From: a virus
IMG/VR virus record: IMGVR_UViG_3300025840_004665
Location: 1-23,245 of that record
Strand: one strand, 5' to 3'
Length of the DNA: 23,245 nucleotides
A model generated the notes under the pieces. That model ran no database searches, was not told where the DNA came from, and saw nothing but the letters and a program-made list of their open reading frames with translations. A program made the translations under genes and the position numbers. Of this stretch, positions 563 to 22,672 are shown one piece after another; position 1 is the stretch's first letter; each line of letters starts with the position of its first letter.

Positions 563-618
563 ATTAGTACCGCGAGCCGGACTCGAACCGGCACGAACAT
601 TACTGTTCAAGGGATTTT

Positions 619-1289
619 CATACCCACTACGACTTTCGTCGCCATATATTATGTTTGGGGTCTGGACTTTCTCTTAACCCTCGTCTTTACGTTAGGGTCC
701 TTCCCGTCAAGTCTCTACACGTTCCCTTTCGGGCTTCGCTCGGGATTACCATTTAACAGGCTTCCCCGAATTTGAGAAGTTCTACATTGAGGATTTCTCC
801 TCAAGCACTCAAATGTTTTTTCCTCTGTATGTGTGTGTTTGTGAGTGACAATTAGGGCAAACTATTCTTAAATTAGAGAATTTATGATTTGTCCTATCTC
901 CATCTATATGGTCAAGTTCTAAAGATAATTTCTCACCTAACCATTCATCAATACCACACACTTCACAGTTTGGTGTCTTTAATCCCTCATCTATGAGACG
1001 TTTCCTTAGCTTATTAGTTTGATAATATGGGTGTTTACCTTCAATAATTTCACTTAGTAATATTTTATTACCATTATGTTTTTTATTAATCCCTTTACCT
1101 GATTGATTTGGGGAGTAAACACCTAATTCTAACGCTCTTCTTTTTAAAGTGTTAAAATGTATTTTCAAACGACTAGCTGCACGTGACATAGTGAGTTCTT
1201 CCTCACAAGCTTTAATGATATCTTCGTTAGTTACTTTCATACTAATAAATATCAAACACTTGTAAAAAAGTCAGACATACAAACTCTTT
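619..1289 (-). mobile_element. Group I intron (IC3-like) in tRNA-Leu(UAA)
   Basis: The 671-nt intron begins AAAGAG and ends with G at 619. P1 is visible: 5'-exon GGACUU pairs with intron GAGUUU (about 1286-1281) across an AAA loop, leaving the expected U·G pair at the 5' splice site. Downstream of the HNH gene the catalytic core is clear. It has a segment resembling the P4-P6 region of the cyanobacterial intron (TCGGGGAAGCC, then GGTAATCCCGAG), GAGACTTGACGGGA, and GAAAGTCC. P7 pairs GACUU (713-709) with AAGUC (669-665). A P8-like hairpin CCCUAA..GAGGGUU lies between them and a P9 hairpin GGCGACGAAAGUCGU precedes the 3' splice site. The order and wording closely follow the cyanobacterial tRNA-Leu intron as I remember it. 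An HNH endonuclease is embedded in the 5' part, between P1 and the core. Self-splicing is inferred, not shown. Confidence 0.9.
809..1240 (-). CDS. Intron-encoded HNH homing endonuclease
   Basis: A 143-residue protein inside the tRNA-Leu group I intron. The N-terminal ~45 residues look like a small helix-turn-helix (ACEEELTMSRAASRLKI...TLKRRALELGV), probably for site recognition. The C-terminal half is an HNH domain of a type common in phages: C92-x2-C95, DH at 110-111, N123, and CPNCH at 128-132, i.e. two zinc-binding Cys pairs around the catalytic His and Asn. I take the ATG at 1240 as the start. An in-frame TTG at 1255 would add five residues and lies closer to the 5' splice site. No ribosome-binding site is evident. 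The expected role is to cut intronless tRNA-Leu alleles and promote intron spread. It could also be a free-standing endonuclease that invaded the intron. Confidence 0.9.
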   Translation of the reverse strand: MKVTNEDIIKACEEELTMSRAASRLKIHFNTLKRRALELGVYSPNQSGKGINKKHNGNKILLSEIIEGKHPYYQTNKLRKRLIDEGLKTPNCEVCGIDEWLGEKLSLELDHIDGDRTNHKFSNLRIVCPNCHSQTHTYRGKNI

Positions 1290-1368
1290 AAGTCCCTCGT
1301 GTCTACCATTTCACCACCGCGGCATAAATTCAAAGAACGTACAATTATGGTTACCCTTAATTGTTATA

Positions 1369-3785: not shown

Positions 3786-4172
3786 TGGTGGAGGTGGCGG
3801 GAATCGAACCCGCGTCTTGCTCAGTCTACCCATAAAGGACTACACGCTTAGGTCAATGTTGATTCTCAACATTCCGAAATATTCAGTTGAATTTTACATC
3901 CTCTACTGATAACCGATGTACGACTCGATTTCGGGTTCAGTCGTTTTTCCACCTTTGTAAGGACTTCTGTTCATAGGTTATATGTCCCCCGACCCGCTTC
4001 GCTGTTTACGTCTTACGCTACAGTTACTTCTTCAGTGCGTAGAAGACCTACTGCCTGAAGTTTGTCAATAGTGTTGCCACTTAAAAAATTGCCTCCATAG
4101 ATTAGAGTGATAGGAAACCTCTCACTGCGTGCCCCGTATGACTAACCCTGCCAATCAATACCGGTCACCCCC
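3786..4172 (-). ncRNA. ssrA: tmRNA (transfer-messenger RNA)
   Basis: A 387-nt one-piece tmRNA. The 5' end GGGGGUG (4172-4166) pairs with the 3' end CACCUCC (3796-3790), followed by encoded ACCA (3789-3786). The third pair is G·U, the alanine identity element. GACCGGUAUUGAUUGGC is the tmRNA D-loop-like segment, and GCGGG-TTCGATT-CCCGC is the T arm. The 5' part has a pseudoknot-like element AGUGA/UCACU, then the message. The most plausible resume codon is GGC at 4078, in context UUUUUUAAGU; Bacteroidota tags usually start with Gly. This gives a 21-codon tag from GNTIDKLQAV to LLRTEEVTVA with UAA at 4015-4013. A rival frame (GCA at 4077) gives ATLLTNFRQ and UAG. Either tag is unlike the usual short ALAA-ending tag. 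Its role is to rescue stalled ribosomes and tag their products. It has its own promoter and terminator. Confidence 0.93.
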
Positions 4173-4197
4173 ATTATTATTTCAAAGAACTATTTTA

Positions 4198-4228
4198 CAA
4201 ATATAAATAGATTTTTTTCTTCTGACAA
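4198..4228 (-). promoter_or_regulatory. Bacteroidota-type promoter for the tmRNA
   Basis: Minus strand: TTG (4228-4226), a 20-nt spacer, TATATTTG (4205-4198). Transcription would start near 4191, leaving a leader of about 20 nt to be removed by RNase P. Confidence 0.78.
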
Positions 4229-4230
4229 CA

Positions 4231-4238
4231 TATTTATA
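4231..4238 (+). promoter_or_regulatory. TATTTATA motif, candidate late promoter
   Basis: TATTTATA ends 17 nt before the ATG at 4256, the same spacing as for the amidase gene. It is one of about a dozen copies before genes in this window. Confidence 0.5.
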
Positions 4239-4255
4239 TATAAAATAATTTAATT

Positions 4256-4852
4256 ATGAAAAAATTTATAATTTCAGAAGAGGAAAGAAGTAGAATTCTT
4301 TCAATGCATGAATCGGCAACTAAAAGACATTATATAAATGAACAAGCTGCTGAACCAACTTTACCTAAAGGTTTAAAACAAGATAATCCTGATAGTGTAA
4401 CAATTAAACAAGTTAGGAACGATGGAACAAACTCAATCACATTCAATAAAAATGGTACATTCAAGTCAACCTTACCTATGCAAAGTGGAAATGCTAAATC
4501 GACCAGTGGAAGTTGGAAAATTAATTCAAAATCTGGTTCACAGTTTGGTGGTGGTTACATTGACTATTATGTTGGTGGTTATAAAGTATTTAGTCAAGAA
4601 TTAAATTCAGACATTTCTGGAAATGATGCCTTAAGTGAGTTGATTTCTACAAATAAACCCGCATATGCAAAACTACCCGTTATGACAAAGTTGGCTAATT
4701 TAGCCACATCCGATTACACGGTACCAGGACAAGGTGGGGAAGGACAAAGTGCTCAGGTGGCAGGTGCTAAAACACCTGGTTGTCCGGCAGGTTGTATTAA
4801 AGACCCTAATTATACGGGCACACCACAAAAATGGGCACCTGTAAATGGGTAA
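4256..4852 (+). CDS. Unknown protein with the shared N-terminal ISEEER..I..MHES motif
   Basis: 198 residues. The N-terminus MKKFIISEEERSRILSMHES resembles those of the M15 peptidase (MGSKLIITESDRNHIRRLYE) and the protein at 22286 (MKIVISEKQLKNIQ). It may be a capsid- or virion-targeting peptide (see findings). Residues ~50-135 are polar and beta-rich with many Gly and Ser (NGTFKSTLP, SGSWKINSKSGS, GGGYIDYYVGGYK), a style seen in small lipocalin-like or virion accessory proteins. The C-terminal tail is Gly/Pro-rich with two Cys (TPGCPAGCIKDPNY). There is no signal peptide. I do not recognise the family. The gene stands alone between the divergent tmRNA promoter and a bidirectional terminator. 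Confidence 0.75.
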   Translation: MKKFIISEEERSRILSMHESATKRHYINEQAAEPTLPKGLKQDNPDSVTIKQVRNDGTNSITFNKNGTFKSTLPMQSGNAKSTSGSWKINSKSGSQFGGGYIDYYVGGYKVFSQELNSDISGNDALSELISTNKPAYAKLPVMTKLANLATSDYTVPGQGGEGQSAQVAGAKTPGCPAGCIKDPNYTGTPQKWAPVNG

Positions 4853-4880
4853 TGAGATATTATTTTACATTTATAATAAA

Positions 4881-4907
4881 AAAAAACCCACATATGTGGG
4901 TTTTTTT
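4881..4907. terminator. Bidirectional terminator between convergent genes
   Basis: The palindrome CCCACATATGTGGG is flanked by seven A on the left and seven T on the right, so it can end transcription from both sides. Confidence 0.85.
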
Positions 4908-5439
4908 ATTGGTTAAAAACGTCTAAAGAAACTACAAGATACTTTCCAAAATATTTTTGGTCTCTGATTACAAAATTGGTACTCATAACACTAACAGCTC
5001 CATAGTTAAAAATATCAGTTAATAATACATCATTATGTAATGGTGAATTTTTCCACAAATCAACAACTAATTTGGCGATAACAATATTCTTAGTGTCTTC
5101 ATTTTGAAAAGTATCGGGAAGATATGCTAAGTTTTCACCTGAATATGCATACACATTAAAATTAGTAAATCTTTTTACAAAATCGGGTTCCTCAATGAAA
5201 TTAGGTACATTAACTGTTTGGTCGTGAGTTAACAAACCACTTAATTTCATATAGGTTGATTGATTTTTAGCAACTTTATATACATCATTGTTCCAAACAA
5301 TTTTGTTAAGACCATTTTCCTGACGATAAAGGTTAACTTCATTTAAAATTGAAATCTCTACACTGCTTTGTGCGTTAACATTTACACTTAAACCAAAAAA
5401 AGACACAATGATTATTAATATGTTTTCCATAATTTTCAT
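4906..5439 (-). CDS. Secreted CAP (SCP/PR1-like) domain protein
   Basis: 177 residues from the ATG at 5439 (a second ATG at 5430 is also possible). Residues 1-23 are a signal peptide with a hydrophobic core (ILIIIVSFFGLSV) and an Ala site before Q24. The rest is a CAP domain: LNEVNLYRQENGLNKIVWN (helix 1), H72 in LLTHDQTV, GENLAYL with E102, and LWKNSPLHNDVLL with H135. These His/Glu residues form the CAP cavity. CAP proteins are extracytoplasmic, and their biochemical role in bacteria is poorly known. A secreted CAP protein is unusual phage cargo. A longer frame to TTG 5466 would cover the promoter, so it is rejected. A host-type promoter (5444-5474) sits almost on the start codon, so the mRNA may be leaderless or nearly so. 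Confidence 0.88.
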   Translation of the reverse strand: MKIMENILIIIVSFFGLSVNVNAQSSVEISILNEVNLYRQENGLNKIVWNNDVYKVAKNQSTYMKLSGLLTHDQTVNVPNFIEEPDFVKRFTNFNVYAYSGENLAYLPDTFQNEDTKNIVIAKLVVDLWKNSPLHNDVLLTDIFNYGAVSVMSTNFVIRDQKYFGKYLVVSLDVFNQ

Positions 5440-5443
5440 ACAA

Positions 5444-5474
5444 CAAATATAGGGAATAATATTCAATTATCCAA
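5444..5474 (-). promoter_or_regulatory. Bacteroidota-type promoter for the CAP protein
   Basis: Minus strand: TTG (5474-5472), a 20-nt spacer, TATATTTG (5451-5444), directly upstream of the ATG codons at 5439 and 5430. Confidence 0.72.
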
Positions 5475-5483
5475 ATAGTCAAG

Positions 5484-5490
5484 TATTTAT
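5484..5490 (+). promoter_or_regulatory. TATTTAT motif, candidate late promoter
   Basis: TATTTAT ends 20 nt before the TTG at 5511. Its distance supports TTG as the true start of that gene. It is divergent from the CAP promoter. Confidence 0.45.
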
Positions 5491-5510
5491 CTATAATAAA
5501 ATCAATTACG

Positions 5511-6611
5511 TTGAGAAGGTTAGGAAAAATACTTGTTGAACAGGCGAATGAAGATAGTGATTTCATGAAACTATTGGCACTATCTAAGGGTAGATTATCT
5601 GATAATGAAGTTGAGTTTGATGCCGATTATATCTACGGAGTAAAAGATGGGTATCTTCTTTTTTGGTTTGATGAAGATGAAGACTTTTTAGAAAAGTTTG
5701 GTGATTTTGATGAATATGAAGCCAAAGACATCCTTTGGATGTATCACGACCCACACAATTATGAATTTACGGATTACTATTCTGCTGAAGAAGATTGGAA
5801 AGAGGGGTATGTTTGGTATAGTTTAAGTCCTGAGAGTAAGAAAGAAATAAAAAAATTATTTAACCTAATTGACATGGATGTAGATGTCGAGTCGGGTTCC
5901 GATGAAACAGCTAGAGAAATGAGCAGTCTGATTTCAAATGTGTTTCCTGGATTGGCTGAAAAACTAACTGAGAGATATTATTATGCTAAAGACGGTGCTA
6001 TTTCTAATGGTATTGAAAATTACATGAGAGGTGAGTTTCTTAACGATTTGTATAGACCATTAAAACTTGAGAGTTGGGGTGATAGTTTCAAAAAACTTAA
6101 AATGCCTTTATCACAGCTTATGTTAATCTATTCATTTTCAGGTTCTTTAAATGACAGTATAGATGATGTCTTAGAAAGATACATGTCAACAAGAGGATAT
6201 AAGATGTTACCTGGTAATCCGAGAGAGGATTACTATAGTTATGAGGACGGTGAATATTTTAACAATGAGTTTCATAAAGAATCGTCTTGGGATATTGAAA
6301 AGACAATATCTGATTTAGAAGATGATGAAGAAAAGTTGGAGAATTATAAAAAGTATGCCGAAATTATTAAGTTCGTCAATAAAGTCATTGGATTTAATAA
6401 AGAAAAGAACTTAGGAAAAAATCCTGATGGTACTTACACAATGTTAAAAGTTATAGATGTTGAACCTGATACAGGTAAATTAAATGTTGAATTTAGAAAA
6501 AAAGAAAATCCGAATACTTGGTCTAGTATGGATTTCAAACGAGGAAAAATCAAACAGTCGACTCTCGGTAATTTAATTAACAATCATCAACTGTTTGATA
6601 TCTTTGATTAG
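5511..6611 (+). CDS. Unknown large acidic protein
   Basis: 366 residues with a probable TTG start (MRRLGKILVEQ). The next in-frame Met is at about residue 19, but the TATTTAT motif at 5484 fits the TTG better. The protein is rich in Asp, Glu, Tyr and Trp in its first third (DYIYGVKDGYLLFWFDEDEDFLEKF with WMYHDPHNYEF after it). A helical middle follows, with a C-terminal beta-like segment (YTMLKVIDVEPDTGKLNVEF). There is no signal peptide, membrane segment or recognisable catalytic motif. Its stop overlaps the stop of the convergent peptidase gene (6608-6611), with no terminator between them, so antisense read-through is possible. Confidence 0.75.
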   Translation: MRRLGKILVEQANEDSDFMKLLALSKGRLSDNEVEFDADYIYGVKDGYLLFWFDEDEDFLEKFGDFDEYEAKDILWMYHDPHNYEFTDYYSAEEDWKEGYVWYSLSPESKKEIKKLFNLIDMDVDVESGSDETAREMSSLISNVFPGLAEKLTERYYYAKDGAISNGIENYMRGEFLNDLYRPLKLESWGDSFKKLKMPLSQLMLIYSFSGSLNDSIDDVLERYMSTRGYKMLPGNPREDYYSYEDGEYFNNEFHKESSWDIEKTISDLEDDEEKLENYKKYAEIIKFVNKVIGFNKEKNLGKNPDGTYTMLKVIDVEPDTGKLNVEFRKKENPNTWSSMDFKRGKIKQSTLGNLINNHQLFDIFD

Positions 6612-7678
6612 TACTGTTGAATGTACCTTTTCTGTAGGTGTTCATAAAGGGTGAATATATCATCCTCATCCAAATACACTTCTGTACCGTAGAACTTATC
6701 CTGAATCAAGAGTCCTGTAACGTCTTCGACAATTTTTGTAAATTCATTATCGATAACCACTTCTTCATCAAAATCTTCGTAATCATCTTCATCATCTACA
6801 GTATTAAACAAGTTACTGTAATCTGAAAAATTTTTGTATGAAGGTACCTCGTATTGGTACTCTTGTTTCTCGTAACCAAACTCACTCACCATTGATAACC
6901 CCAAACTAATAGCTCGGTCCACATCGTCCAACACAATAAATTCATTGGTGGTGTGCATGTTGTAATAACCACATGAGAAGTTAATACAAGACACGTCAAC
7001 CTTTTTCTTGAGTTGTGATACATCTGTGTATGGGTGTGACTGTAAAAGTGGTTCTACAGCCATTGTTTGTGTGAATAGTTTCTTAGTACGTGTAATGAAG
7101 TCACCATCTTTTTCGAACAAACGAACTCCCGAGCAAACCTCGGTAATTAGTTGATTCCCTGGTGCGTCATATTGAATGATGTAACCTACATCGTGAAGAA
7201 AGGTGGGGTCACACTTGCTAGAACCATGGCAACCAGTCTCTTCAGATACAAAAAACCCTACTTTGACATTCGAGAGTACTCGTAGAAGTTCTAAACAAAT
7301 GAAGACCCCACACTTATCATCTCCACCAATACCTGTTGGCTGACCTGTTGAGGTTTGTCCAATCAACGATTCATGTTGCGTTCCATCGAACGTCATACCG
7401 AAGGTTTTTGGTTTGCTCAACTGTGTTTCTTTCACAACGATTTTGTCTTCGACAATGTTGTGTACGGTATCGGTGTGTGCAACAAACATTGGAAAATAAT
7501 TCCCTTCAGACAACTCACCTTTCTTTGCGTAAATGTTCATCATCTCATCGCGGTAATAAGTTACCCCTGGCATCGTGTCCAATACTGAACAGATGTGTTC
7601 TACCATCATTTCTTCTTGGTACGTTTTTGACGGTACTGAGAGAAGGTTAATAAAGTTGTCTTTTGTTAGTTTATCCAT
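6608..7678 (-). CDS. M20/peptidase T-like zinc metallopeptidase
   Basis: 356 residues. The metal-ligand pattern of M20/M28-clan di-zinc peptidases is complete: HTD (H68, D70), GIGGDDKCG (D120/D121), SEETGCHGS (E146-E147, general base and ligand), D171 in IIQYDAPG, and H242 in YNMHTTNE. This pattern is typical of tripeptidases and aminopeptidases (PepT, PepD) that finish the breakdown of peptides released by Clp-type proteases. The family's dimerisation (lid) domain seems shortened. After ~residue 270 there is an acidic tail (DDEDDYEDFDEE) of unknown role. The gene faces the same way as the Clp unfoldase, which ends 63 nt upstream. It has its own host-type promoter with an overlapping TGACCAAATGTCA palindrome. 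Cytoplasmic; exact substrate unknown. Confidence 0.87.
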   Translation of the reverse strand: MDKLTKDNFINLLSVPSKTYQEEMMVEHICSVLDTMPGVTYYRDEMMNIYAKKGELSEGNYFPMFVAHTDTVHNIVEDKIVVKETQLSKPKTFGMTFDGTQHESLIGQTSTGQPTGIGGDDKCGVFICLELLRVLSNVKVGFFVSEETGCHGSSKCDPTFLHDVGYIIQYDAPGNQLITEVCSGVRLFEKDGDFITRTKKLFTQTMAVEPLLQSHPYTDVSQLKKKVDVSCINFSCGYYNMHTTNEFIVLDDVDRAISLGLSMVSEFGYEKQEYQYEVPSYKNFSDYSNLFNTVDDEDDYEDFDEEVVIDNEFTKIVEDVTGLLIQDKFYGTEVYLDEDDIFTLYEHLQKRYIQQY

Positions 7679-7696
7679 GTCTGTTAATTTGAACTA

Positions 7697-7727
7697 CAAA
7701 TATAAAACAAATATTTTAATTGACCAA
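7697..7727 (-). promoter_or_regulatory. Bacteroidota-type promoter for the peptidase
   Basis: Minus strand: TTG (7727-7725), a 20-nt spacer, TATATTTG (7704-7697), 18 nt before the ATG. The -33 element lies inside the palindrome at 7721-7733. Confidence 0.75.
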
Positions 7728-7733
7728 ATGTCA
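7721..7733. promoter_or_regulatory. Operator-like palindrome TGACCAAATGTCA
   Basis: TGAC-N5-GTCA, extended by one more T/A pair on each side. It differs by one base from the site at 9852 read on the opposite strand (TGACAAAATGTCA). It covers the -33 element of the peptidase promoter, as a repressor site would. Confidence 0.6.
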
Positions 7734-7740
7734 AGGGGAA

Positions 7741-9759
7741 TTATTTCCCCTTAACAATGATTTCTTCTTGTCCTTTCATCTGAAGAGAATATTTTGAACC
7801 CATTATGATATTCTTCTTAAGAATTTCTTCAGAGATGAGGTCTTCAATTTTCTCTTGAATGGCTCGTTTGATAGGACGTGCTCCGTACTTCTCATCGAAT
7901 CCAACTTTGGAGATGAAATCTTTCACACCTTTTGTGATGGAGATATCATAACCAATCTTTTTAACTCTTTTGAGAAGTTTGGTAACCTCAATTTCAACAA
8001 TTTGTTGAACTTGTAGTTCTTTTAGTGGATTGAACACAACAACTTCGTCAACACGATTTAGGAACTCAGGGGTGAAGAAGTTTTTAAGTTCTTTCTCCAA
8101 CAATACCTTTTTAAGTTCTTCGTCTTTTGACATTTTTGTTGTGGTGTCAAATCCGATTCCTGTTCCGAAGTCTTGAAGTTTTTTAACTCCCAAGTTTGAT
8201 GTCATGATAATCAAACAGTTTCTGAAGTTAATCTTTCTACCAAAACTATCGGTAAGGTGACCATCGTCTAACAGTTGTAGTAAGAGTGAGAAGATGTCTT
8301 TGTTTGCCTTTTCAATCTCATCGAACAATACTACAGAGTAAGGTTTGTTTTTCACTGCTTCTGTTAGTTGTCCACCTTCGTTGTAACCCACATATCCTGG
8401 AGGGGAACCAATCAATCTACTCATTGAGTACTTTTCTTGGTATTCAGACATATCCACACGGATTAGTGATTCTTCATCTCCGAAGATTTCTTCAGCCAGA
8501 CGTTTAGCTAAGTGTGTTTTACCGATACCTGTTGAACCCAAGAAGATGAATGAACCGATTGGACGGTTGGGGTCTTTGATACCCACACGATTTCTACGGA
8601 TTGCCTTTGAAATCTTTGTTACCGCTTCTGACTGACCAATAACTGATTGGTTAAGGTTGTTCTCCAAGTTCAATAGTGACTCCACTTCATCGGTGTTGAG
8701 TTTGGATACTGGAATTTTCGTCATGGTTGATACCACTTCATATACCATCTCCTCAGTCACATTACTACGGTTGGTGTTTTGTTCCTCCTCAAACTTCTTC
8801 TTTTCCTCTTCGAGTTTCTTTAGAAGTTTCTTTTCACGGTCACGTAGGTGTGCCGCCTCCTCGTACTTTTGTAGTTTAACTACCTTAATCTTATCCTCTT
8901 TGATTTGAGAAGCCTCGGCTTTCAACTCTTCGATAACTTCAGGTAGTTGTACATTGATTTGACTTTTCGCACCCACTTCATCCATTACGTCAATCGCCTT
9001 ATCAGGAAATTCACGGTCTGTGATGTAACGACCTGCAAGGGTTACACAAGCATCCAACGCCGCGTCAGTGTAGTTCACTTTGTGGTGTTTTTCGTAGAAC
9101 GGTTTTAGACGGTTAAGGATTTCCAAAGTTTCCTCAGGTGTGGCACCATCTACCATGACCTTTTGGAATCTACGTTCCAATGCTCCGTCTTTTTCGATGT
9201 TCTCACGATACTCATCCAATGTGGTTGCTCCGATACATTGGAGTTCACCACGAGCAAGTGCGGGTTTAAAGATGTTTGACGCATCCAATGAACCTGATGA
9301 ATTACCCGCTCCGATAATCGTATGGATTTCATCAATGAATACGATAATTTCAGGATGGTCATGAAGTTCATCTAAGATTACTTTTAGACGCTCTTCAAAT
9401 TGTCCACGATATTTTGTTCCTGCGACAATCGATGTCATATCTAATGATACAATACGCTTGTCAGCTAAGTTTGTAGGACAATCACCTTGAAAAATCTTCA
9501 TTGCCAATCCTTCAACGATTGCAGTTTTACCACAACCAGGTTCACCAATAATGATAGGGTTATTTTTCTTTCTACGTGAGAGAATCTGAGCAATGCGAGC
9601 AATTTCGCGGTCTCGCCCAATAACAGGGTCCAATTTACCTTGTTCTGCGAGTTTAATTAAATCTCGTGAGAAGTTATCAAGTACAGGTGTACCTGTTGTC
9701 GATACCTCACCTCTACTTTTACGTCCTCCTTTTTCGTTTGGGTCTACTTCTTCAATCAT
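7741..9759 (-). CDS. clpC: ClpC/ClpA-like double AAA+ unfoldase lacking the N-domain
   Basis: 672 residues. D1 has Walker A GEPGCGKT (72-79), Walker B IVFIDEIH (139-146) and pore loop KYRGQFE (117-123). A middle domain follows with a UVR motif ([21 protein letters not shown], 296-316 region), the ClpC hallmark. D2 has Walker A GSTGIGKT (408-415; the usual GPTGVGKT is altered), pore loop GYVG (455-458), Walker [10 protein letters not shown] (477-485) and a C-terminal arginine-finger region ending [11 protein letters not shown]. The ClpP-docking loop is present as IGF at 535-537. The adaptor-binding N-domain (~150 residues in ClpC) is missing: the protein starts ~26 residues before the D1 linker [11 protein letters not shown]. 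It should unfold proteins and could feed host ClpP. The start is the ATG at 9759, just downstream of a host-type promoter. Confidence 0.95.
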
Positions 9760-9785
9760 TTTCTTTCTATTAAAGTTTTACTGTA

Positions 9786-9816
9786 CAAATCTAACAAAAA
9801 TTGTGATATAATCCAA
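9786..9816 (-). promoter_or_regulatory. Bacteroidota-type promoter for the Clp unfoldase
   Basis: Minus strand: TTG (9816-9814), a 20-nt spacer, TAGATTTG (9793-9786), 26 nt before the ATG. A palindrome (9821-9833) begins 4 nt upstream of the TTG. Confidence 0.75.
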
Positions 9817-9820
9817 TGTT

Positions 9821-9833
9821 TGTCAAAATGTCT
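9821..9833. promoter_or_regulatory. Operator-like site TGTCAAAATGTCT
   Basis: An imperfect copy of TGACAAAATGTCA (two end-half mismatches), just upstream of the Clp -33 box. Its centre is 31 bp, about three helical turns, from the perfect site at 9852-9864. Confidence 0.5.
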
Positions 9834-9851
9834 GTTATTTTTTTCTACTAC

Positions 9852-9864
9852 TGACATTTTGTCA
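9852..9864. promoter_or_regulatory. Operator-like palindrome TGACATTTTGTCA
   Basis: A perfect TGACA-N3-TGTCA palindrome in the 201-bp region between the Clp unfoldase and the UVR gene. It lies 7 bp before the TATTTATA motifs that face the UVR gene, so one regulator could act on both. Confidence 0.58.
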
Positions 9865-9871
9865 GTTATTA

Positions 9872-9885
9872 TATTTATATTTATA
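9872..9885 (+). promoter_or_regulatory. Two overlapping TATTTATA motifs, candidate promoter of the UVR gene
   Basis: TATTTATA occurs at 9872-9879 and again at 9878-9885, about 75 nt before the ATG at 9961. That is farther than at other genes. The rest of the 9886-9960 leader is A/T-rich with no other feature I can name. Confidence 0.4.
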
Positions 9886-9960
9886 AGTGGCACACTTTTA
9901 TCAGTATTGTCCACAAATAAACATTACAAAGATAATAAACTATTATTAAATAAAAAAACT

Positions 9961-10407
9961 ATGTTTGGAAAAAAAAGAAATTTCAATGACCTGTTTAACA
10001 TGTTCAACGACATGGACTCAATGTTCAATCAACCCTTTTTCGTAAAAGGTAAAACGAATTCTGAAAGCGGAACCGATGAAAATGGTGAGTGGCATAAAGA
10101 AAGTTTTATCTCTGATGATGGTTCCTATTCAGTTACCAGTATCGTTAGAAGTTATGGTAGTTCATCTACAACCTCAAACAATAAAAAGTCATCTACAGAA
10201 ATCTCTTCATTAAAGAAAGAGATGGAACGTTGTGTTGAGGAACAAAATTATGAAAGAGCTGCCGAGCTTAGAGACCAAATTAAAAAACTCGAAGAAAACG
10301 AAGAAAAGATTTCTGAGTTACAAACAAAACTCGATAAAGCAGTTAAAGAACAGAATTTTGAAGATGCTATTAAACTACGAGACCAAATAGGTAAGTTAAA
10401 AGGTTAA
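9961..10407 (+). CDS. Tandem UVR-motif protein, possible Clp adaptor (McsA-like C-terminus)
   Basis: 148 residues from the ATG at 9961. The frame stays open to 9820, but that stretch contains the operator and TATTTATA motifs and has only a TTG start, so I reject it. Two UVR motifs fill the C-terminal half: EISSLKKEMERCVEEQNYER with AAELRDQIKKLE after it (80-111), and ISELQTKLDKAVKEQNFEDA with IKLRDQIGKL after it (117-146). UVR helices are found in UvrB/UvrC, in ClpC middle domains and in the ClpC activator McsA. The N-terminal 75 residues (MFGKKRNFNDLFNMFNDMDS, then a Ser/Thr/Gly-rich stretch) contain no zinc Cys pairs, unlike McsA. The gene is divergent from the Clp unfoldase, whose middle domain bears the same motif. 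Action as its adaptor or activator is inference. Confidence 0.82.
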   Translation: MFGKKRNFNDLFNMFNDMDSMFNQPFFVKGKTNSESGTDENGEWHKESFISDDGSYSVTSIVRSYGSSSTTSNNKKSSTEISSLKKEMERCVEEQNYERAAELRDQIKKLEENEEKISELQTKLDKAVKEQNFEDAIKLRDQIGKLKG

Positions 10408-10476: not shown

Positions 10477-11394
10477 ATGGGTAGTAAATTAATCATAACC
10501 GAAAGTGATAGAAATCATATAAGAAGATTATATGAAAACGGAGATTCAAAACCTTCGAAAAAACATTCATTGATAAATGACCAGGTTGACCCTGATTTTG
10601 AAAACTTACAAAGAAATCAATCAAATGAATTTTCCGACACTTTAAGTTATGCTTTAAAATATGATATAGATTTAAAACCAACGGCCTCTAACCCTGAATA
10701 TCGAGCTACATGGGGAGATATTGGGATTGACCCAAATACCTTACCTCAAAATATTAAATCATTATACCCAATATTTATTCCCGAATTATTATCGGGATTA
10801 AAAAAAGGTCAATCTCATAGACTTAAAGACTTATTAGATGTTGTTAAGTTAGTTGAAGAAAGAAGTGGTTTTGATGTTACTGTGACAGGTGGGGTGGATA
10901 AATACCATAGAGAAGAAAAACCTAATAGTGGACATAACACAGGAAAAGCCTTAGATTTTGTAATTGATAATAATAGTGATAAAAATCAAGAAACAATAGA
11001 AGAGGTTATTGGAAATATTGCAAGTAATGAGCACAAAGATTTATCATTTATAAATGAATACAAAAGAGACACTGGTGGTACGGGTGGTCATTTCCATATA
11101 AGTTTTATACCAGAAAAAAATTATTATCATTTTTTTGATGAAGGTTTTAGAAAAGAAGGGGATGAACATTACCAATGTTGTGAAAAGAACCTAAGATTAG
11201 AGTTTGGTAAAGAGACGAATTTTAATGGTGCTGTGCGTAATGGTAGAGCAAAAGAACTTATTAAATTACCACCAAAATCGATTGATACTTCTAAACTGAA
11301 CGTACAAAGTCCAAGAGATATTAAAAAAACGCCTGAATATCTACAAATTCCGGATAATTCAGAAAAGGAACCTTGGTGGAGAAGAAATAAATAG
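10477..11394 (+). CDS. M15-family D,D- or L,D-peptidase (cell-wall hydrolase)
   Basis: 305 residues. Residues ~105-215 carry the M15 zinc peptidase signature: TVTGGVDKYH, SGHNTGKALDF (S151, H153, D160: SxHxxGxAxD) and GGHFHISF (H205, H207: the HxH pair). The family hydrolyses peptide bonds in peptidoglycan stems or cross-links (VanY, phage T5 endolysin type). The N-terminus MGSKLIITESDRNHIRRLYE shares the motif of the 4256 and 22286 proteins and may target the enzyme to the virion. There is no signal peptide. The C-terminal ~90 residues are Lys- and Pro-rich and probably disordered (KKTPEYLQIPDNSEKEPWW). With the amidase at 1963 this makes two wall hydrolases of different specificity. One may act in lysis and one in entry; the sequence does not say which. 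Confidence 0.86.
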   Translation: MGSKLIITESDRNHIRRLYENGDSKPSKKHSLINDQVDPDFENLQRNQSNEFSDTLSYALKYDIDLKPTASNPEYRATWGDIGIDPNTLPQNIKSLYPIFIPELLSGLKKGQSHRLKDLLDVVKLVEERSGFDVTVTGGVDKYHREEKPNSGHNTGKALDFVIDNNSDKNQETIEEVIGNIASNEHKDLSFINEYKRDTGGTGGHFHISFIPEKNYYHFFDEGFRKEGDEHYQCCEKNLRLEFGKETNFNGAVRNGRAKELIKLPPKSIDTSKLNVQSPRDIKKTPEYLQIPDNSEKEPWWRRNK

Positions 11395-22285: not shown

Positions 22286-22672
22286 GTGAAAATAGTCATC
22301 TCTGAGAAACAATTAAAAAATATACAAAAATCCCTAACTGAAGAAAAAGACCAGTTAGGGGTTTTAAACAATTATATGCCAAGTAAAATGGTATATGAAC
22401 ATGGTAATACTAAAGTTTATTTAAAAGATATAGAATTAGTTGGGGATAATGATGATATATCTATAGAAGCTAAAGTCAATAAGATATTACATGATAATGT
22501 TGATGTTAGTGAATTTGCCAAAATATATTCAATAATTGACGGATATACTTCTGATGATTTACCATTAGGTATGTTGATAAAAATATTCATTGTTGAGAAT
22601 ATAGATAATATGGTAAAGAAAGTATTACCTAATAATTTAACTGAGTATGATGTGGTTTTACATCTATATTAA
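22286..22672 (+). CDS. Unknown small protein with the shared N-terminal VISE motif
   Basis: 128 residues with a GTG start. The N-terminus MKIVISEKQLKNIQKSLTEE belongs to the same motif group as the proteins at 4256 and 10477. The rest is acidic (LVGDNDDISIEAKVNKILHD; TSDDLPLGMLIKIFIVENID) with mixed helix and strand. It lies directly before the prohead protease gene, where T4 carries head-core genes. It could be an internal head protein processed by that protease. No family recognised. Confidence 0.75.
   Translation: MKIVISEKQLKNIQKSLTEEKDQLGVLNNYMPSKMVYEHGNTKVYLKDIELVGDNDDISIEAKVNKILHDNVDVSEFAKIYSIIDGYTSDDLPLGMLIKIFIVENIDNMVKKVLPNNLTEYDVVLHLY

Follow-up and report, generated by a model that had tools for sequence, protein, structure and literature searches.

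A conserved long tmRNA tag near a ClpC-like unfoldase in a phage clade: a candidate branch of trans-translation with a private degron

Why phages carry genes for transfer-messenger RNA (tmRNA, encoded by ssrA) is an open matter. Huge phages encode it, some of them with SmpB (Al-Shayeb et al. 2020, PMC7162821), and it is present in mycobacteriophages and Bacillus phage G as well (PMC4131195). The guesses offered, in the sources as excerpted, extend from the upkeep of the hijacked machinery to the reuse of host proteins (PMC9004378). The question takes a specific form in a stretch of 23,245 nt from the IMG/VR virus record IMGVR_UViG_3300025840_004665 (positions 1-23,245, hereafter the window), which encodes a T4-type terminase and where a tmRNA gene lies near genes for an AAA+ unfoldase (Clp), a peptidase and a small protein with UVR motifs. 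The original prediction proposed that these four parts work together, with the phage tag routed to the phage unfoldase and host ClpP as the protease, instead of to host ClpXP. All four parts were confirmed (by ARAGORN, the Rfam model RF00023 and Pfam), and the interpretation as a whole is partly supported. Here, we ask how firmly the tmRNA and the unfoldase are linked, what conserves the tag, and which protein is likely to read it.

The tmRNA gene spans 3786..4172 on the minus strand and was found by ARAGORN as well as by RF00023, which it matches over the full length of the model (positions 1-374; 83.8 bits against a cut-off of 47, E 1.9e-31). Its fold contains pairs that are backed by covariation across 19 tmRNAs, and in 17 of these 19 the acceptor stem has a GU at the G3.U70 pair, the alanine-type mark of tmRNA. 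A tag reading frame with a resume codon and a stop is present, both in the ARAGORN output and in the analysis of 67 tmRNAs described below. In the window, the gene lies 3.6 kb downstream of Clp on the same strand.

This arrangement recurs among the relatives of the window Clp. A search of viral records with this protein resulted in at least 593 relatives, of which the best 80 loci were taken (L002-L081; 97% to 68% identical to the window Clp over the best segment). Many Clp matches among phage records looked like bacterial DNA by their titles and were excluded. The whole records behind these loci were scanned with RF00023; some of them come from near-identical phages, and the counts are thus not counts of 80 independent events. 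A tmRNA above the cut-off is present in 55 of the 80 records (27/40 and 28/40), on the Clp strand in all 55 and 1,974-6,322 bp downstream (median 2,436). ARAGORN alone under-counts the tmRNAs of this clade, finding them at 8 of 80 loci. The 25 records without a tmRNA lack one almost wholly because the contig ends (the tmRNA of L008 is itself cut by a contig end): with at least 8 kb of sequence past Clp it is present in 40/40 records, with at least 6 kb in 46/47, and at shorter reaches in 49/51 (5 kb), 53/55 (4 kb) and 55/61 (3 kb). In L009, the single miss at 6 kb, both the tag and the tmRNA body are present, but the T-loop is interrupted by a group I intron (101 bits). The additional miss at 5 kb is L055, where 5.6 kb follow Clp and the gap between Clp and peptidase is enlarged. 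A second Clp seed, 63% identical to the window Clp, brought in 14 further records, ten from the seed's own subclade (80-100% identical) and four at 63-64%. Eleven of these have a tmRNA (8/10 and 3/4, respectively), again on the Clp strand, at gaps of 2,273-5,458 bp, and the three without have 1.1, 4.5 and 1.2 kb of downstream sequence.

The linkage also holds when approached from the tag. The tag core KLxAVGLxRTEE, written as a degenerate DNA pattern, has matches in 75 viral stretches; in the gathered loci it has 88 matches, all in frames with a tag-like end. Of the 75 tag stretches, 63 lie in records new to the first set, and 47 of 50 tested records hold a Clp gene (cut in G082), the other three being fragments of 5.5, 8.4 and 11.9 kb. 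Among cultured phages, no place covers 80% of the window tmRNA DNA, and the matches listed are to the tmRNA 3′ end only. As a separate observation, group I introns lie directly after GGGTT in the T-loop of two phage tmRNAs (L009, 17419-17645, 101 bits; L119, 13207-13423, 68 bits). Introns of this kind are described for bacterial tmRNA in an excerpt of PMC11915505.

In the window, the tag reading frame lies at 4013..4078 on the minus strand (positions 95-160 of the tmRNA gene, from ARAGORN) and encodes GNTIDKLQAVGLLRTEEVTVA, followed by a stop. For the analysis of tags we used 67 tmRNAs (the window, the 55 and the 11), picked by the covariance model and not by their tags. All 67 carry one family of tags of 21-22 residues, roughly GNVLNK[LM]xAVGL[ILV]R...VxVA. 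The peptide pattern used in this analysis was widened after the tags had been inspected, and fits 67/67. Position 11 is G in all 67, position 12 is L in 66 and position 14 is R in 64; the last residue is always A, and the residue before it is V in 61 tags, the others having A (3), L (2) or I (1). The tag is conserved as a peptide by selection. When the 48 different 14-codon DNAs were joined in a spanning tree, the codon changes of a single base in the tag frame were synonymous in 67 cases and nonsynonymous in 42, where 70% nonsynonymous changes are expected (p 1.7e-11, taking the events as independent and setting aside 46 codons with multiple changes). The other two frames of the same region have no deficit of nonsynonymous changes (44:88 and 8:126). 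An earlier count on 59 tags (87 synonymous to 41 nonsynonymous) included tags selected by the pattern and was thereby biased, for which reason the count was redone on tmRNAs selected by the covariance model only. A column-permutation test on 30 tags, in which 5 of 200 permutations fell at or below the observed ratio, is weak, with distant pairs saturated.

Could RNA structure, or simply recent common descent, conserve these columns instead of the function of the peptide? The tag codons of the window can pair as a local hairpin (CTTCAG/CTGAAG plus GTAG/CTAC, by eye), as such an explanation would have it. However, the bases of this hairpin vary, the consensus fold of the 19 tmRNAs has no helix over the tag columns, and the changes are mostly synonymous in the tag frame alone, with G11, L12 and R14 kept through different codons (GGT/GGA, CTT/TTA and CGT/CGC/AGA, respectively). 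On the consensus fold and the codon changes we reject RNA structure as the cause, and we give this explanation as a whole hardly any credence.

The claim that the tag is non-standard holds up against the tags of Bacteroidota. In 12 of 15 genomes from which Bacteroidota Clp loci came, a tmRNA scores above the cut-off, and their tags (best tmRNA per genome) have nine residues, GENNYALAA or close to it, sharing with the phage tag the first residue or two alone. The form KLxAVGLxRTEE, one common form of the core that misses others such as KMETLGL, was searched for among 84,980 genomes of bacteria and archaea (genome_contigs) and gave no exact match. A long tag under selection, with one core form absent from the searched cellular genomes, fits a dedicated reader protein. 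Tag-like ends among the 5,118 open reading frames (ORFs) of at least 50 aa in the 80 loci amount to 10 matches, all of them the tmRNA tag frames themselves. In a raw count of the ORFs longer than 100 aa in the 80 Clp loci, with composition and false ORFs uncontrolled, a terminal VA is found in 1 of 1,530 and a terminal AA in none; judging by these ends, phage ORFs possibly avoid degron-like termini.

A conserved peptide need not be a degradation signal for Clp: the long tag might shield tagged phage fragments from host ClpXP, mark proteins for another phage factor, or mainly help the phage tmRNA to outcompete that of the host and to release ribosomes. Ribosome rescue alone suffices for the essential role of tmRNA in some bacteria, and the ALAA end of the host tags is replaced by VxVA in most phage tags, as a tag with some other function would allow. 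Yet the constant final A and a V or A before it in 64/67 remain degron-like, and a complete unfoldase and a peptidase are encoded close by, so that we regard these other functions as improbable.

The unfoldase gene lies at 7741..9759 on the minus strand (identified through Pfam, phrog_4871, PDB chains and motifs) and encodes 672 aa with both AAA modules, a ClpP-docking loop and an M domain. Its description as a ClpC-like protein with an IGF loop stands: the closest solved chains are those of ClpC (755 bits), ahead of ClpB (662) and ClpA (505). The N domain of ClpC is its usual adaptor-docking domain; none of the best 25 of 31 Pfam matches to the phage protein is to Clp_N, which is why we call it ClpC-like. 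In an alignment of 80 proteins (the window and 79 loci, with one partial gene excluded), which are 658-708 aa long, the D1 pore loop is identical in 80/80; both modules have their Walker A, and the second its Walker B, throughout. The D2 loop has GYVG in the forms shown (8 of 17), and the M domain of the phage Clp contains a UVR-type motif. An IGF-type loop ([ILVM]GF) is likewise present in all 80, so docking on a ClpP is to be expected. A recent capture of the gene from a host is unsupported, with the best relatives in genome_contigs (among the best 80 listed) at most 56% identical.

Which ClpP would this be? The host enzyme, as originally proposed, is too narrow an answer, since 8 of 54 long relatives (5/29 and 3/25) encode a ClpP of their own, about 20-50 kb from the Clp-tmRNA region. 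Six of the eight were displayed, three of them identical, and these have what we take to be the serine, histidine and aspartate motifs. The loci of seven of the eight are L197-L200 and L214-L216. Two of 29 long records have a phage SmpB gene (L201 and L202), which is convergent with the tmRNA gene at distances of 525 and 865 bp.

Between Clp and the tmRNA, at 6608..7678 on the minus strand, lies a PepT-like metallopeptidase of the M20/M28/M42 kind (Pfam; phrog_4191, 'peptidase'; NCBIfam). It had been called M20-type; the Pfam matches to M42, M20 and M28 are all weak, and it is M42 that exceeds its cut-off (25.2 against 23.2), whereas M20 stays below (19.0 against 24.6), as does the PepT-like NCBIfam model (36 of 274 bits). 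In the commonest forms shown, HxD, GGD, EE, D and H are conserved, presumably as metal ligands. The gene is present in 76 of 80 Clp loci, at a median gap of 85 bp; the gap exceeds 1.5 kb in one of the 76, L055, and the four loci without it have 2-178 bp of contig left downstream. Its orientation relative to Clp is opposite in 55 and the same in 21, and has changed on the Clp tree.

The UVR protein is encoded on the plus strand, divergent to Clp, at 9961..10407 (148 aa; Pfam UVR, E 8e-25). Its two UVR motifs bear out the predicted family, but the earlier start, a TTG at 9820, is probably too early; we prefer the methionine of MFG(K) at 9961 because many homologues begin with MFGK or similar. 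A predicted structure (predicted local distance difference test 70, low confidence) has a helix, three strands and a helical UVR part. The protein has no match in the phage collection searched, and it scores 39.4 bits on the NCBIfam McsA model, against a cut-off of 210. Homologues occur in 42 of 80 loci, always divergent and within 1.5 kb upstream of Clp, and the Clp tree requires at least 11 gains or losses of the gene, which makes it an optional partner. The predicted co-occurrence of the four genes is strong for tmRNA, Clp and peptidase, and extends to the UVR gene in about half of the loci. Plastid UVR proteins are enriched with trapped CLPC1, according to an excerpt of PMC8889267; by analogy, and given the UVR-type motif in the M domain of the phage Clp, a direct interaction between UVR protein and Clp is plausible.

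Promoter elements had been a further argument for joint action. Before the tmRNA lies a TAnnTTTG-type element, TATATTTG (4198..4205, minus strand, found in the sequence), which we take to be the Bacteroidota -7 element; such elements lie within 90 nt before 43 of 55 tmRNAs of relatives, as against 7.5% of 4,800 random 90-nt stretches. A second element, TATAAATA (4231..4238, minus strand), presumably a T4-late-promoter-like box, has nine copies in the window, where 3.2 would be expected. Besides the copy before the tmRNA, these include two overlapping ones between Clp and UVR, found in the window scan (9872-9885, minus strand) and directed towards Clp. The element lies within 90 nt before 20 of 55 tmRNAs of relatives (background 2%). 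Within 120 nt before Clp, TAnnTTTG is found in 34/80 and TATAAATA in 8/80. Most of the 14 tmRNAs printed have a GTTCTTTGAAA-like stretch (GTTCTTTGAAAATAT or similar) immediately upstream of the mature 5′ end; to us, this stretch resembles the boxA antitermination leader of rRNA. Together with the glycine resume codon, the elements upstream of the tmRNA point to Bacteroidota hosts, and the clade probably consists of large viruses of Bacteroidota bacteria. The same elements suggest that the tmRNA has its own promoter. The proposed sharing of promoter elements is therefore at best weak evidence of joint function: TATAAATA does stand before the tmRNA and between Clp and UVR, but before 8 of 80 Clp genes only, as against 20 of 55 tmRNAs.

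Taken together, the findings are best read as a phage-borne branch of trans-translation that has a private degron, a view we hold tentatively, with somewhat less than even confidence. Helped by SmpB from the host (in a few relatives, from the phage), the phage tmRNA would free ribosomes stalled on broken mRNA, for example while host mRNA is being destroyed during infection, and the unfinished chains would receive the phage tag. They would then be threaded through the D1 and D2 pores of the ClpC-like ring, which would dock on a ClpP of host or phage origin, and the PepT-like peptidase may break the released peptides down to amino acids for the production of virions. In phages that have it, the UVR protein could serve as an optional adaptor or regulator, pairing with the UVR motif of the Clp M domain. 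The linkage, the conservation of the tag and the four parts are observed, and the flow from tag to Clp, ClpP and peptidase is what we would predict from these sequences. In a stricter form, the degron would be read only by the N-domain-less ClpC-like ring of the phage, thereby diverting the products of rescued ribosomes from host ClpXP, with some members bringing their own ClpP or SmpB; this form is conceivable, and we hold it more loosely.

Several findings weigh against this reading. A stable tmRNA-Clp linkage within one phage clade can be ordinary synteny: the 80 Clp loci are the nearest of at least 593, and the KTSC, NT252 and terminase genes are also nearly constant in the region. In five huge phages from published metagenomes, with Clp proteins 45-59% identical, no tmRNA above the cut-off lies nearby, and under stricter filters three of the five have no tmRNA above the cut-off at all. 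One tag-bearing record, G105, has a Clp gene broken by stop codons. Among the long relatives, many of which are fragments, ClpP was not found in 46/54 and SmpB was not found in 27/29, and the UVR gene is present in 28 of 55 tmRNA loci and missing in 27. The main rival builds on the constancy of the other genes and on the distant huge phages, and takes tmRNA and Clp for separate protein-turnover genes kept together by the synteny of the clade, with host ClpXP, or some other protease of the host, reading the tag and the phage Clp acting on other substrates, such as proteins of host takeover or head assembly. ClpX reads LAA-type ends, and host ClpXP could read the C-terminal VA or AA of the tag, as all tags end in A and 64/67 in VA or AA, near to such ends. 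The tmRNA, with promoter elements of its own, is also not obviously in the same operon as Clp. However, host ClpXP should need just a short LAA-like end, as in the host tags, and the conservation of the middle of the peptide, K-[LM]-x-x-[VIL]-G-L-[LIV]-R, is left unexplained. Moreover, the orientation of the peptidase and the UVR content changed on the Clp tree, whereas the strand of the tmRNA is constant (55/55). We consider synteny with host proteolysis less likely than the private degron, and the other functions of the tag and the constraint on the RNA as less likely again.

Some further features of the window stand apart from this question. A tRNA-Leu(UAA) gene at about 567-1323 (minus strand) is interrupted by a group I intron (RF00028, 643-838), placed by eye in the anticodon loop, which carries an ORF for an HNH endonuclease (809-1255); in the relatives L003 and L022, the gene is unsplit. 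Three ORFs on the plus strand (4256-4852, 10477-11394 and 22286-22672) encode otherwise unlike proteins with similar leaders, IISEEERSRIL, IITESDRNHIR and VISEKQLKNIQ, respectively, and some such leaders are followed by an [LI]xE-like motif. Possibly they are capsid-targeting leaders of the T4 type, which the prohead protease would remove.

A clade with a near-constant tmRNA, an unfoldase a few genes away and a long tag under selection turns the relation of tag and unfoldase into a testable question. If the private-degron reading is true, these phages would own a degron system that could supply a new orthogonal tag-protease pair for laboratory use, and a ClpC-type ring would pick its substrates without an N domain. 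Among the matches listed from the open-access literature, titles and abstract openings report neither a conserved long phage tag nor a fixed tmRNA-ClpC pair. The tmRNAs of huge phages, mycobacteriophages and phage G are alike in being phage-encoded, with SmpB in some, while their accounts, as excerpted, mention no long conserved tag or linkage to a Clp unfoldase (PMC7162821, PMC4131195). In Chryseobacterium phage MA9V-3, a tmRNA and a gene annotated as ClpX lie about 4 kb apart; by the published description, as excerpted, it differs in having ClpX and not a ClpC-like protein, and no tag is reported (PMC13120357).

Among cellular systems, McsA and the plastid CLPF/EXE/UVR proteins, the UVR partners of ClpC, share the UVR motifs (PMC8889267, as excerpted). 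The phage UVR protein differs from McsA, staying below the McsA cut-off and having an N-terminal part of its own, and its partnership with Clp is a prediction. The ClpC/MecB proteins of Bacillota (PDB 6em8, 3j3r) resemble the phage Clp in the two AAA modules, the short M domain with a UVR-type motif and the ClpP loop, and differ in that the phage protein has no N domain. The closest counterpart of the whole is bacterial trans-translation in its Bacteroidota form (tmRNA-SmpB, ssrA tag, ClpXP/ClpAP), with which the phage tmRNA shares the fold, the alanine-type G.U pair and the glycine resume codon. It departs from this form in its tag, which has 21-22 residues instead of 9, is conserved throughout and mostly ends in VxVA and not ALAA, in the rarity of a phage SmpB (2/29 long records), and in the position of its gene near that of a ClpC-like unfoldase.

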